Positions 6,040-9,142 of a stretch of DNA of 40,188 bases are shown in pieces; position 1 is the stretch's first letter; every line of letters begins with the position of its first letter. The stretch is taken from positions 1-40,188 of the forward strand of contig JASHOU010000003.1 of assembly GCA_030038475.1 (NCBI GenBank), in the 5' to 3' direction. The notes under the pieces were generated by a model that saw only the letters and a list, made by a program, of their open reading frames with translations, was not told where the DNA came from and made no database searches. Source of the DNA: Terriglobales bacterium (GTDB lineage Bacteria > Acidobacteriota > Terriglobia > Terriglobales > Acidobacteriaceae). The position numbers were made by a program, and so were the translations under genes.

Positions 6040-6127
6040 GTTTTTCTAACGGCCTGCCGCGTGTATTGGCTCTTTGACCACCACTGTGATAAACGATTGT
6101 CAGAACGATTCCAAAACGGGGGTCTTC

Positions 6128-7177
6128 ATGAACGACCCATGGGAGAGCTGGATTCCTGGAGTGCTTAATCGGAAACAGATGGGGCAGCTTTGCGAAGTCG
6201 GCTTTATCACTAGAGAAGGCTCAAGATTGCCCGAAGACAATCTAGGAAAGTCGTCCGTCGACCTGACATTGTCCAAGGTGATGTACGAAATGACCCGCGG
6301 CTCCGTCAAGCCGACTTCTTCAACACAATCTTACGGCTTCTTCATCGAGCGCGAGAAACTCGGCGAAAAACGACCCGAACCGCCCGACGGAATATTCACA
6401 CTTGAAAAACACCGGACGTACGTTTTCAAGCTGAGCGAAGGTCTCAACCCGGGTATGGCCGCAGTTGGCATTTTCGGACAAGCAACAGCAAAGAGTTCGG
6501 TTGGACGAGTGGACGTCCTTGCGCGTCTCATTGTATCCGGAATGGATAGATATGAGGGTTTCGACCCGGACGGGCTAGCCAATTCTACCGGTGACATGTA
6601 TTTAGAGGTAACCCCCATAACATTCAGAGTTAAGGTCAAAGCGGGCACCAGCCTTTCTCAATTGAGACTCTTCTACGGTAGCCCGAAAAATGCGGAAGTG
6701 ACTGGTGCTGAGCTGTTCAAAACCGTTTTCAAAGGGATAGAGAAGACAGACGGCAGTCTATCCGTTAACCTGGACCATGAGACTATCGCCGGACTGCCAG
6801 CCTCAGCCTATTGTCACGACTCCTCCGAGGAATCGGATGAACCAATCCCTCTTTGGGACGACAACCCAGAGAAACCGAAGCCATGGAAGTTCTGGAAGCT
6901 GAAAAAATCCGATTCCAAAAAGAGATTGACGATCCAATCCGAGAATTTCTACATTCTCCGTTCCCGAGAAGAGATATCCGTGCCGCCAGGAATTGCGATA
7001 TATTGTCGAGCAAATGATGAGACAATTGGCGAAATGAGAATTCACTACGCGGGTTTTGTGCATCCATGGTTCGGATGGCAACGCCCAGATGGGCGTCCCG
7101 GAACCCCGCTGATTTTCGAGGTTCGCGGTCATCAGGTGGGCGTCAGTTTGGCAGACAACGAAAAATGGCTAACCTAA
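6128..7177 (+). CDS. Double-domain dCTP-deaminase-like protein (DCD/dUTPase superfamily)
   Basis: The 349-residue product resembles the long two-domain 2'-deoxycytidine-triphosphate deaminases rather than the ~190-residue Dcd. The first half carries the nucleotide-binding motif AKSSVGRVDVLARLI (around 122-136) and the strand MYLEVTP with Glu160 at the position of the catalytic Glu of dCTP deaminases; the second half repeats the fold with GEMRIHYAGFVHPWFGW and IFEVRGH (Glu331). The expected reaction is dCTP to dUTP plus ammonia. ATG 6128 is preferred; the frame opens with a TTG at 6074, and a weak GGGGG lies before 6128. Its 3' end overlaps a 51-codon ORF by 13 bases, and a GNAT-ASCH gene follows. 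Base composition appears less G+C-rich than flanking genes, suggesting transfer. A nucleotide-pool or antiphage role is inference only. Confidence 0.8.
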   Translation: MNDPWESWIPGVLNRKQMGQLCEVGFITREGSRLPEDNLGKSSVDLTLSKVMYEMTRGSVKPTSSTQSYGFFIEREKLGEKRPEPPDGIFTLEKHRTYVFKLSEGLNPGMAAVGIFGQATAKSSVGRVDVLARLIVSGMDRYEGFDPDGLANSTGDMYLEVTPITFRVKVKAGTSLSQLRLFYGSPKNAEVTGAELFKTVFKGIEKTDGSLSVNLDHETIAGLPASAYCHDSSEESDEPIPLWDDNPEKPKPWKFWKLKKSDSKKRLTIQSENFYILRSREEISVPPGIAIYCRANDETIGEMRIHYAGFVHPWFGWQRPDGRPGTPLIFEVRGHQVGVSLADNEKWLT

Positions 7178-7403: not shown

Positions 7404-8501
7404 ATGGAACCTTTGACTCAGCATAAGGCCCAAGAATCAGGCACGTTATTCCCGCTCTCTAGCCAATTCCGCGTTGCGAAAATAGGGAGCGTCGACGCGA
7501 AAAAATTAACTGACAATCTGCTGGTGCTCAAATCGCTGATCGAATCGAGCGAGGAAATGTATCCGAACATCGGCCGATGGTTTGGCGAGAAGGTCGTGCC
7601 GGGACTGCGCTCTTCGGAACGCACTGCCTGGGTGGGGTACGAAGGCGAAAAACCAGTAGCCGCCGCCGTTCTTAAACTCAGCGGAAAATCAAAGTTCTGC
7701 CACCTAAAGATCGACAAAGGGCTCCAAGACATGGACCTGGGCAGACTTTTCTTCACGATGATGACATTGGAAGCACGTCACCTCGCCGAGGAAATCCACT
7801 TCACGCTGCCGGAGAGCCTATGGCTCTCCAAAGAGAAGTTCTTCGCCTCTTTCGGATTCTTCCACGCCACCCGCTCCTCTAGGCAATACAGGCACGGAGA
7901 AGCAGAACTTCTCTGCTCGTCTTCGCTACAAATGACACAGAGCCTTGCCCTCGAAGGCCTCCCTCGACTTGTCGCTAAGTTCAACCTCGGGGGATATACG
8001 CTAGTGCGCGATCTCCTCGTGAGCATGAAGCCAAGATTCGCTGATAAAATCATGGCCGGCTCAAAGGTCGTGGAAATAAGACGGAAATTCTCGGAAAAGT
8101 GGGTGGGTTCGAGAGCCGTTCTCTACTCTTCCGATCCTCAAAAGGCACTCGTCGGAGAAGCCACCGTGAAATCCGTAACTGCAGCAGCGCCCGCCACGAT
8201 ATGGTCTCAATACGGCCCGAGCATCGGCTGTTCGCACGAGGAATTCAGTTCATACGTAGGAAAGGCCCCAAAGGTAAGCGCGATCGAGCTCGACAACATA
8301 TATCCATACAAGCAGCCGATTCCGCTGGCACAGATCAATCACCTCTTGCAGAGCGAACTCAGACCGCCGCAGTCATACCAAGACCTCCGTTTAACCGATC
8401 AAAGCAGTCCATGGGCAAGAGCGATATCACTGGCCAGTCTCCTACATGGGAGCTTCTCGTCGTCGAGAATGAACTCGGCTCCCGGAGAGTGGATTTCTTA
8501 G
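7404..8501 (+). CDS. GNAT acetyltransferase-like domain fused to an ASCH domain
   Basis: This 365-residue protein has an N-terminal GNAT-like region (about 20-175; TAWVGYEGEKPVAAAVLKL then a helix with LGRLFFTMM and FFASFGFFHAT) and a C-terminal ASCH (PUA-like) domain (about 203-312). The ASCH signature is clear: LLVSMKPRFADKIMAGSK, then VVEIRRKF and ALVGEATVKSV. ASCH domains bind RNA or nucleotides; E. coli YqfB (ASCH) removes acetyl from N4-acetylcytidine, but its Thr24 corresponds to Glu224 here (K221-V-V-E224), so the same activity cannot be assumed. AAAGGAAAG precedes ATG 7404. It lies 83 bases after the 51-residue ORF and probably belongs to the same cassette as the dCTP-deaminase-like gene. 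Substrate is unknown; the GNAT assignment is weaker than the ASCH one. Confidence 0.75.
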   Translation: MEPLTQHKAQESGTLFPLSSQFRVAKIGSVDAKKLTDNLLVLKSLIESSEEMYPNIGRWFGEKVVPGLRSSERTAWVGYEGEKPVAAAVLKLSGKSKFCHLKIDKGLQDMDLGRLFFTMMTLEARHLAEEIHFTLPESLWLSKEKFFASFGFFHATRSSRQYRHGEAELLCSSSLQMTQSLALEGLPRLVAKFNLGGYTLVRDLLVSMKPRFADKIMAGSKVVEIRRKFSEKWVGSRAVLYSSDPQKALVGEATVKSVTAAAPATIWSQYGPSIGCSHEEFSSYVGKAPKVSAIELDNIYPYKQPIPLAQINHLLQSELRPPQSYQDLRLTDQSSPWARAISLASLLHGSFSSSRMNSAPGEWIS

Positions 8502-8509
8502 CCCTGTGC

Positions 8510-8538
8510 CCCACCCTTCGCGCTTTTCGAAGGGTGGG
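8510..8538 (+). terminator. Strong hairpin after the GNAT-ASCH gene
   Basis: CCCACCCTTCG (8510-8520) and CGAAGGGTGGG (8528-8538) form a perfect 11-bp stem with a 7-base loop, nine bases after the stop codon. It lacks a T run, so it may be a weak terminator or an mRNA 3' stabilising hairpin. Confidence 0.55.
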
Positions 8539-8589
8539 AACTCAAACGCCGCGCAATATGTCTTGGGTGGCGCCGCGCCAAAAACCAAA

Positions 8590-8612
8590 AGCCCCGCTAG
8601 TCAGGCGGGGCT
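8590..8612 (-). terminator. Rho-independent terminator on the minus strand, downstream of the tRNA-like gene
   Basis: On the minus strand AGCCCCGC (8612-8605) and GCGGGGCT (8597-8590) form an 8-bp stem with a 7-base loop, followed by TTTGGTTTTTGG. No minus-strand ORF reads into it; the only recognisable minus-strand gene upstream is the tRNA-like sequence at 8794-8706, so it is probably the end of that transcript. Confidence 0.75.
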
Positions 8613-8705
8613 CATCCAATTCCAGTAGGTACGCTGCTTGCCAAACACAACCATTATAACATCGCCACGCAACTCCAATGCAGCTTACTAATGTCGAGGA
8701 CCGTG

Positions 8706-8794
8706 CGGAGGACGACGGAGTTGAACCGTAGTGGCTGACTAGGCCGCTCGAATGCTTGGCAAGCATCGTCCAGTACCCACTGGCAACGTCCTCC
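8706..8794 (-). tRNA. tRNA-like gene with 8/4 acceptor/T-stem architecture, long variable arm, anticodon GCC (allo-tRNA candidate)
   Basis: Read 5' to 3' on the minus strand, 89 bases fold as a cloverleaf. The acceptor GGAGGACG pairs with CGTCCTCC over 8 bp, and the T arm is ACGG-TTCAACT-CCGT (4-bp stem, canonical TTCAANY-type loop). A 7/5 reading would leave T opposite C in the T stem and would lack the near-universal U8, so 8/4 is preferred. The D arm is CCAGT-GGGT-ACTGG (5-bp stem, 4-base loop, as in tRNA-Sec). The anticodon arm is GATGC-TTGCCAA-GCATT, giving GCC (glycine codons GGC/GGU). A 21-base variable arm forms a hairpin, and the discriminator is G73. CCA is not encoded. The long variable arm and G73 are serine-tRNA identity features, so mismatch between charging and anticodon is possible (inference). 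A minus-strand terminator follows at 8612-8590. Confidence 0.75.
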
Positions 8795-9142
8795 AGACGC
8801 CGCTTGCCCGTCTTCAATATTCGCTCGCTGTCAAGCTCGTACAACTCCACCAAAGTAGCCACTTATAAGGTGGTCTCGACAGGCCGGACAACCAAGTCCT
8901 GGGTCGCACCGCCACCGCCCCCGACGGCTTCAGCCCGGTGCTCCAAGTTCGCGCCCGGTTTTTGGGCGCTAACCTGGGAGAGCCCTTTGGTGGCGCAATC
9001 GTCAACCCAAAGCTCCCCTCGATGAACCCTCGACGGCCCCTTCCGACGGGCCAAAGAGCTGGGATTTTTTGGCTTCACCACAGGTCCCAGAACGCATATC
9101 CTTTGCGTTGAGGTTTTTGTACCAAACGACGAGGTTTTGACC
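8795..9142. other. Gene-free stretch between the tRNA-like gene and the beta-helix gene
   Basis: I see no supportable ORF. The stretch contains a possible minus-strand promoter for the tRNA-like gene, a C/G-rich segment around 8905-8970 and the 5' leader of the beta-helix gene with GAGG at 9131-9134. Confidence 0.5.
8862..8891 (-). promoter_or_regulatory. Possible promoter of the tRNA-like gene
   Basis: On the minus strand TTGTCC (8891-8886) and TATAAG (8867-8862) are separated by 18 bases, placing a start site about 60 bases before the tRNA-like 5' end. It is a weak match, listed because the RNA has its own terminator and no upstream minus-strand gene. Confidence 0.3.

Follow-up and report, generated by a model that had tools for sequence, protein, structure and literature searches.

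The minus strand of contig JASHOU010000003.1 from a Terriglobales soil bacterium (assembly GCA_030038475.1) carries, within the 40,188-nucleotide stretch analysed here (the window), an unusual tRNA gene at 8706..8794 and, shortly downstream, a small-RNA-like element complementary to the anticodon arm of that tRNA. ARAGORN calls the gene as tRNA-Gly(gcc), 8705..8794 on the minus strand, and calls no other tRNA in the window. On direct reading it has an acceptor stem of 8 bp (GGAGGACG/CGUCCUCC), a T stem of 4 bp (ACGG/CCGU), a D stem CCAGU/ACUGG around a D loop of 4 nt (GGGU), a G at the discriminator position (G73), no encoded CCA, and the anticodon GCC at 8760-8758, presented in the loop UUGCCAA on a 6-bp stem with a 1-nt bulge in its 3′ strand. 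An initial annotation made from the letters alone had read the acceptor and T stems, D loop, G73 and GCC in the same way; the variable arm, given there as 21 bases, comes to 19 nt (8730..8748, minus strand), with a 6-bp stem containing one C-A mismatch. That annotation had also made its case depend on conservation of the stem pairs in relatives, and they are conserved: when 17 copies, one of them the window's, are aligned, 97.6% of the 492 cells are paired and both sides have changed at 12 of the 29 pairs. Four of five covariation measures were reached by none of 500 shuffles, and the fifth, further pair types, was matched by 337 of 500. A covariance model built on the alignment (R1) gives the window tRNA, itself one of the 17 sequences used, 103.6 bits. 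The best Rfam family is tRNA-Sec (RF01852), which shares the long acceptor branch, the 4-nt D loop and the long variable arm; we rejected this identity because the anticodon is GCC instead of UCA and the score, 41.7 bits, lies under the gathering score of 47. A separate tRNA-Sec in the same genome scores 68 bits. Given the ARAGORN call and a fold backed by compensatory changes, we conclude that the 8/4 allo-tRNA(GCC) at 8794-8706 on the minus strand is real. Its 12-bp acceptor/T branch (8 + 4), long variable arm, G73, non-serine anticodon and Acidobacteriota host are all shared with the structurally similar 8/4 allo-tRNAs (Mukai et al. 2017), a family that a review describes from Acidobacteria, among others (PMC7609411).

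The initial annotation took this gene as an allo-tRNA standing alone, followed by a standalone minus-strand terminator. The structural fit to the allo-tRNA family holds and the terminator exists (8613-8589), but the terminator follows a small-RNA-like element that had been overlooked, and the evidence points to a two-RNA module rather than a lone tRNA. The candidate small-RNA gene lies 58 nt downstream of the tRNA on the same strand. By direct reading, it has a TATAAT (8653..8658) within an extended -10 element (TGTTATAAT); near the predicted 5′ end of the RNA follows an antisense stretch (UGUUUGGCAAGCAGCGUACC, 8628..8647) that complements the 5′ strand of the anticodon stem together with the anticodon loop, overlapping a complement of the tRNA D arm (GUACCUACUGG, 8622..8632; 10 of 11 pairs Watson-Crick, one G-U). 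A terminator scan finds an intrinsic terminator at 8589..8613, with the loop CUGACUA and a T-rich tail to about 8580, and none between the tRNA and the antisense stretch. With both ends deduced from the -10 box and the terminator, the antisense RNA would be about 69 nt long (8580..8648, minus strand). The predicted duplex of antisense stretch and anticodon arm has an energy of -26.4 kcal/mol, equalled by 1 of 2000 dinucleotide shuffles of the downstream region. The terminator loop is in turn complementary to part of the variable arm (CUAGUCAG, 8742-8735) over 8 contiguous Watson-Crick pairs, and D-arm complements like the window's were noticed by eye in many relatives. A weak Rfam match (rnk_pseudo, E 0.97) overlapping the small-RNA region was taken as chance.

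Further copies were collected at several taxonomic depths. With BLAST, 12 of 61 genomes (a set that includes the window's own) gave a match at E <= 1e-5. Within the genus, R1 matched 10 of 24 genomes; in wider samples it matched 36 of 250 genomes from the family (7 of the 36 with UAU-class copies only) and 17 of 299 from the class (7 of the 17 with only tRNA-Sec, a serine-anticodon tRNA or UAU-class copies). A DNA-pattern scan of GTDB genomes returned 72 stretches, 70 of them Acidobacteriota by title, including Silvibacterium bohemicum S15, and a scan of viral contigs returned six; together these two scans added 34 records. The two pattern matches outside the Acidobacteriota (L151, Novosphingobium; L167, Nakamurella) had no covariance-model match and were set aside as chance-like. 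The resulting 93 allo-tRNA copies comprise 90 distinct tRNA sequences and include close relatives, so that counts over them are not independent; as guards we used 26 nearest pairs, with neighbours chosen by similarity of the tRNA body rather than from a tree, and switches of anticodon within a genomic site. Two records with short downstream sequence (L102 and L184, the latter one of the 34 added records and a truncated duplicate of the L034 tRNA) were left out of the 91-copy listing, and two with 8-nt anticodon loops (L038 and L045) out of the 89-copy triplet test. The anticodons of the 91 copies are GCG (24), GUC (17), GCC (13), GAG (10), UUC (6), GAC (6), AUC (5), GAU (4), CUC (2), GUA (1) and CAG (1), besides the two copies with 8-nt loops; none is a serine or stop anticodon. 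The discriminator base of the 93 copies is mostly G (74), otherwise U (17) or A (2), the non-G copies including L089, L090, L094, L095, L107, L108, L110, L112, L113 and L119. Two copies, L029:5353-5495 in the window's own genome and L036:1038-1179, carry an insert of about 53 nt with GC-rich hairpins in the variable arm and still have an antisense partner downstream, and L030 holds two tandem modules (8519-8607 and 8830-8918) with anticodons AUC and GUC and an antisense stretch each.

In most of these copies the antisense element accompanies the tRNA and changes with it. In 18 of the first 19 copies, the best complement of the anticodon arm lies about 40-70 nt past the tRNA on the same strand; in the nineteenth (G016) only the second-best complement does, with several mismatches. 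Over the whole downstream complement, 1055 of 1157 cells are Watson-Crick and 48 of the other 102 are G-U, a share that counts little since the placement score favours G-U. Of 89 copies, 72 pair their anticodon triplet with their own antisense through Watson-Crick pairs alone, and 85 do so if G-U is admitted, as against a mean of 17.1 and a maximum of 27 fully Watson-Crick triplets when partners are swapped (200 permutations); the antisense offset of each copy is the best match within a range, and swapped partners were given equal freedom. The initial annotation had proposed that loss of GCC in relatives would refute it. GCC does vary, and this is the wrong refutation because, while anticodons differ between copies, the neighbouring antisense varies along and complementarity is kept. 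The 26 nearest pairs do not overlap, and the members of each differ in anticodon; in 24 of them the antisense triplet has changed as well, and in 24 both members are still complementary with G-U allowed, one of these depending on the chance-level antisense of L189. Switches are likewise seen within single sites. Beside a gene that we take by eye, not from a family search, to be rpoD, eight copies carry GUC, GCC or GCG and the triplet is fully Watson-Crick in seven, L189 failing; at a site beside what we take on the same footing to be alcohol dehydrogenase and xdhC, 11 copies carry GCG or GUC, of which six are fully Watson-Crick, three include a G-U and two (L045 and L111) were left unplaced by the script, duplex prediction finding the antisense in both.

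Predicted energies give the same picture. For 58 allo-tRNA copies, the mean for a tRNA with its own downstream partner is -28.1 kcal/mol and with swapped partners -17.8, and none of 10000 permutations reaches the former, the best being -19.9; L102, whose contig stops 48 nt past the tRNA, and a second hit in L064 were dropped from this test. Fourteen controls (nine UAU-class copies, four tRNA-Sec and L064, which has the serine anticodon CGA and was counted apart from the tRNA-Sec) show as a group no preference for their own partner (-15.9 versus -15.0). The UAU-class copies without such a preference are L056, L063, L100, L114-L118 and L120. Thirteen genomes carry two to four modules each, and here the mean is -27.3 kcal/mol for the 32 own pairs and -16.6 for the 52 cross pairs. 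Among 39 ordinary tRNAs five reach -24 kcal/mol: L138, an allo-tRNA that had slipped past the filter, L192, which belongs to a second class described below, and L058, L025 and L033 through discontinuous matches. In a follow-up set six of 56 tRNAs reach -22 kcal/mol, the sixth, L212, again discontinuously.

Partner-specific pairing in most copies makes it very improbable that the gene is simply an extra serine or glycine tRNA with an unrelated RNA downstream. Such a tRNA would fit the intact fold and the activity of related allo-tRNAs in Escherichia coli recounted in the review (PMC7609411), but its anticodon would not be expected to change between relatives, as housekeeping anticodons do not. 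We give equally little credence to the idea that a mobile element left the antisense stretch behind as an inverted repeat that is passive and has no function as RNA. Copies do occur in viral contigs and at various sites unrelated to each other, and the same review mentions a UAU allo-tRNA pseudogene within a transposon gene (PMC7609411); a passive repeat, however, would hardly keep its complementarity through wide sequence divergence while flanked by promoter-like and terminator-like sequences, nor does it sit well with the UAU class, which as a group lacks the complementarity.

The flanking signals also bear on whether the antisense acts as an RNA of its own. Ahead of the antisense, 65 of 89 copies show a promoter-like box pair, a number that in shuffles averages 11.1 and never exceeds 18; 11 of the remaining 24 show an exact TATAAT, and a scan places a terminator-like hairpin after it in 86 of 91, some of these hairpins being poor. 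The 5′ leader of the tRNA resembles the antisense as well: in 65 of 91 copies it complements the anticodon arm in a fixed register, with 752 of 1183 cells Watson-Crick (swapped maximum 663), while the opposite side of the arm finds a complement in the 3′ trailer (667 of 828 cells Watson-Crick, at most 574 with swapped partners). One could thus envision leader, tRNA, trailer and antisense on one precursor, serving as a folding or processing checkpoint purely in cis with no separate trans-acting RNA, and the failure to find a terminator between tRNA and antisense in the window would agree. We consider this unlikely as the whole account: the promoter-like boxes suggest that the antisense has a start of its own, the complement downstream far exceeds that of the leader in strength, and in the window the leader stretch (GGGCAAGCGGCGUC, 8796..8809, minus strand) is only a partial complement that 78 of 2000 shuffles equal, convincing family-wide rather than by itself, while the trailer segment has its best match elsewhere, with few pairs. 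Upstream of this leader, a stretch that may be the -10 region of a promoter for the tRNA (GAATATTGAAG, 8812..8822, minus strand) was read by eye.

What the sequences establish is a tRNA gene, a small-RNA-like element, their complementarity, its co-variation and the insulation between modules of one genome. With a probability of roughly 60%, we propose that the window encodes a two-RNA module, an 8/4 allo-tRNA(GCC) and an antisense RNA of about 70 nt, in which the tRNA would be a toxin or conditional mistranslation device and the small RNA its antitoxin. Both RNAs would be transcribed and would bind each other, and the small RNA would thereby neutralise a tRNA that is toxic once charged. The 5′ end of the small RNA would first contact the open anticodon loop and from there unwind the anticodon stem and some of the D arm; the terminator loop may also kiss the variable-arm loop in the window copy and about half of the others. 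At least five contiguous pairs between these two loops are found in 45 of 84 comparable copies, 43 of 53 where the terminator loop has at least 7 nt and 2 of 31 where it is shorter, and the mean run length is 4.3 with the own partner compared to 3.1 (maximum 3.3) with swapped ones, the window having 8. Bound in this way, the tRNA would be held off the ribosome and out of translation. Once freed, the allo-tRNA would be charged by seryl-tRNA synthetase, probably with serine because of G73 and the long variable arm, and in the window's case would misread GGC and GGU; among 2211 codons from six reading frames of the window, GGC occurs most often. The UAU class, as a group without antisense, set beside the other allo-tRNAs with it, is a correlation that fits a lock placed on working, dangerous tRNAs.

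Base pairing by itself has no direction, and the logic could be reversed, with the small RNA an active regulator and the allo-tRNA a sponge or decoy whose tRNA fold merely presents an anticodon-like loop. The copy L037, with two mismatches weakening its acceptor stem, would suit such a role. Compensatory changes nevertheless keep the acceptor and T stems, which a sponge does not need; the anticodons avoid serine and stop and include those for common codons; and in the family listing the small RNA has little beyond the antisense stretch and terminator. We therefore regard the reversed logic as improbable and retain the toxin-antitoxin proposal.

Several observations weigh against that proposal. 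In two genomes (rows L036 and L104) cross pairing equals own pairing. The antisense of L189 is unconvincing (15 of 100 shuffles as good), that of the degenerate L037 is equalled by 4 of 60 shuffles and its own partner ranks 48 of 72, and weak antisense is also found in L101, L104 and L109 (3, 3 and 6 of 60 shuffles) and in L185 (2 of 100). The tRNA-Sec control L058 reaches -29.9 kcal/mol, if through a discontinuous match. In the window, the small-RNA promoter consists of the extended -10 only, and a sigma-70 consensus scan of 8500-8950 detected a promoter neither for the small-RNA gene nor for the tRNA. The U and A discriminators suggest that charging may not be uniform across copies, and the complementarity of leader and trailer to the anticodon arm may mean that control is partly in cis. 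Finally, we know of no report of a natural allo-tRNA harming its host.

The same kind of antisense element lies behind an ordinary 7/5 tRNA-Asp in L192 (6033-6270). With this stretch as query, 8 of 12 genomes gave matches, and the 14 loci fetched include nine modules of tRNA and antisense (L214, L215, L216, L217, L219, L223, L224, L225 and L227, L214 being the same place as L192) with anticodons GUC in seven, GCC in one and GCG in one. The other five loci comprise one cut by a contig end, two with the small-RNA part only and two tRNAs without the small RNA; L218 and L220 hold second-class small-RNA-like sequences with no tRNA called directly upstream. For the nine Asp-like modules, which were selected by similarity to the first and whose arms were marked by hand, own pairing averages -31.4 kcal/mol and crossed pairing -19.2, reached by 0 of 20000 permutations. 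A tenth 7/5 module (L228, -24.9 kcal/mol) lies in the window's own genome. In several 7/5 modules the loop of a trailer hairpin is complementary to the anticodon loop, with a weaker preference for the own partner (118 of 20000). More tentatively, and with somewhat less than even confidence, we suggest that Acidobacteriota and some of their phages possess a class of protein-free toxin-antitoxin modules, each with a mistranslating tRNA as toxin and an anti-anticodon RNA as antitoxin, built on at least two scaffolds (8/4 and 7/5 Asp-like) and with anticodon arms diversified against cross-talk within a genome.

All six viral contigs (L193-L198, IMG/VR) carry the pair of tRNA and antisense. Of six open reading frames (ORFs) tested on L195, one matches a major head protein family, one a family of unknown function and four had no match; among three ORF pieces from other loci, one adjoining the L196 copy matches tail-fibre/virion families, one a family of unknown function and one nothing. 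When the 642 ORFs around the allo-tRNAs were clustered, many loci extending only 1.5 kb to each side, no protein family recurred across sites. The largest families are specific to a site, the alcohol-dehydrogenase-like (11 loci) beside the xdhC-like (10 loci, the window's own included, at 3.7 kb), followed by the rpoD-like (8 loci) and a phage-type cluster (5 loci). Neighbours in the window are a dCTP-deaminase-like gene, an ORF that narrowly passes the Pfam cut-off for ASCH and falls below it for GNAT, and a beta-helix protein; the first two (6074-7177 and 7404-8501) lie between groEL and the module.

A T-box controls a downstream gene by base pairing with a tRNA at both its anticodon and its CCA end. 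The present element resembles T-boxes in being an RNA that reads a tRNA anticodon through complementarity. We rejected a T-box or attenuator, since at the depth of these loci no downstream gene recurs across sites; in addition, the antisense spans both anticodon loop and stem, and in the window its strand continues opposite to the convergent ORF 7404-8501 instead of forming the leader of a regulated gene. Type VIII toxin-antitoxin systems, of which SdsR/RyeA is an example, offer another parallel, as here also two RNA genes stand side by side and one is, in sequence, complementary to the other. CreTA, another of this type, is similar in consisting of two RNAs with no protein product needed as toxin. 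Archaeal CreT is reported to sequester a rare tRNA, and CreA to silence the toxin gene by guiding a CRISPR effector to it (PMC10097628), whereas here the tRNA is both the proposed toxin and the direct target of the antisense.

For allo-tRNAs themselves, the review records that two from S. bohemicum insert serine at leucine codons in E. coli (PMC7609411), and a later paper calls many allo-tRNAs exceedingly active suppressors in that host (PMC7590224). The S. bohemicum allo-tRNA with a GAG anticodon in our set (L122/L096; L122:2974-3063, minus strand) is presumably one of those two. Only this one was recognised when R1 and the tRNA-Sec family were run (150 candidates each, 7 of the 14 tRNA-Sec-family matches being inspected by eye), which does not prove the absence of a second, 9/3 allo-tRNA. 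A search of the literature on antisense RNAs against tRNAs or anticodons, covering titles and the openings of abstracts, found nothing on point; it does not establish that Mukai et al. (2017) are silent on a downstream antisense RNA. In a comparison that leaves the text of that paper aside, the tRNA alone is of a known kind, and what appears to be new is the module of tRNA and anti-anticodon RNA.

We know of no established natural role for allo-tRNAs, and an antisense RNA that is linked to them and co-varies supplies a role open to immediate test. If the proposal is correct, engineering would have at its disposal a large collection of naturally occurring tRNA/anti-tRNA pairs insulated from one another. 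It would also mean that tRNAs can be regulated antisense targets and that bacteria and phages keep code-breaking tRNAs under an RNA lock.
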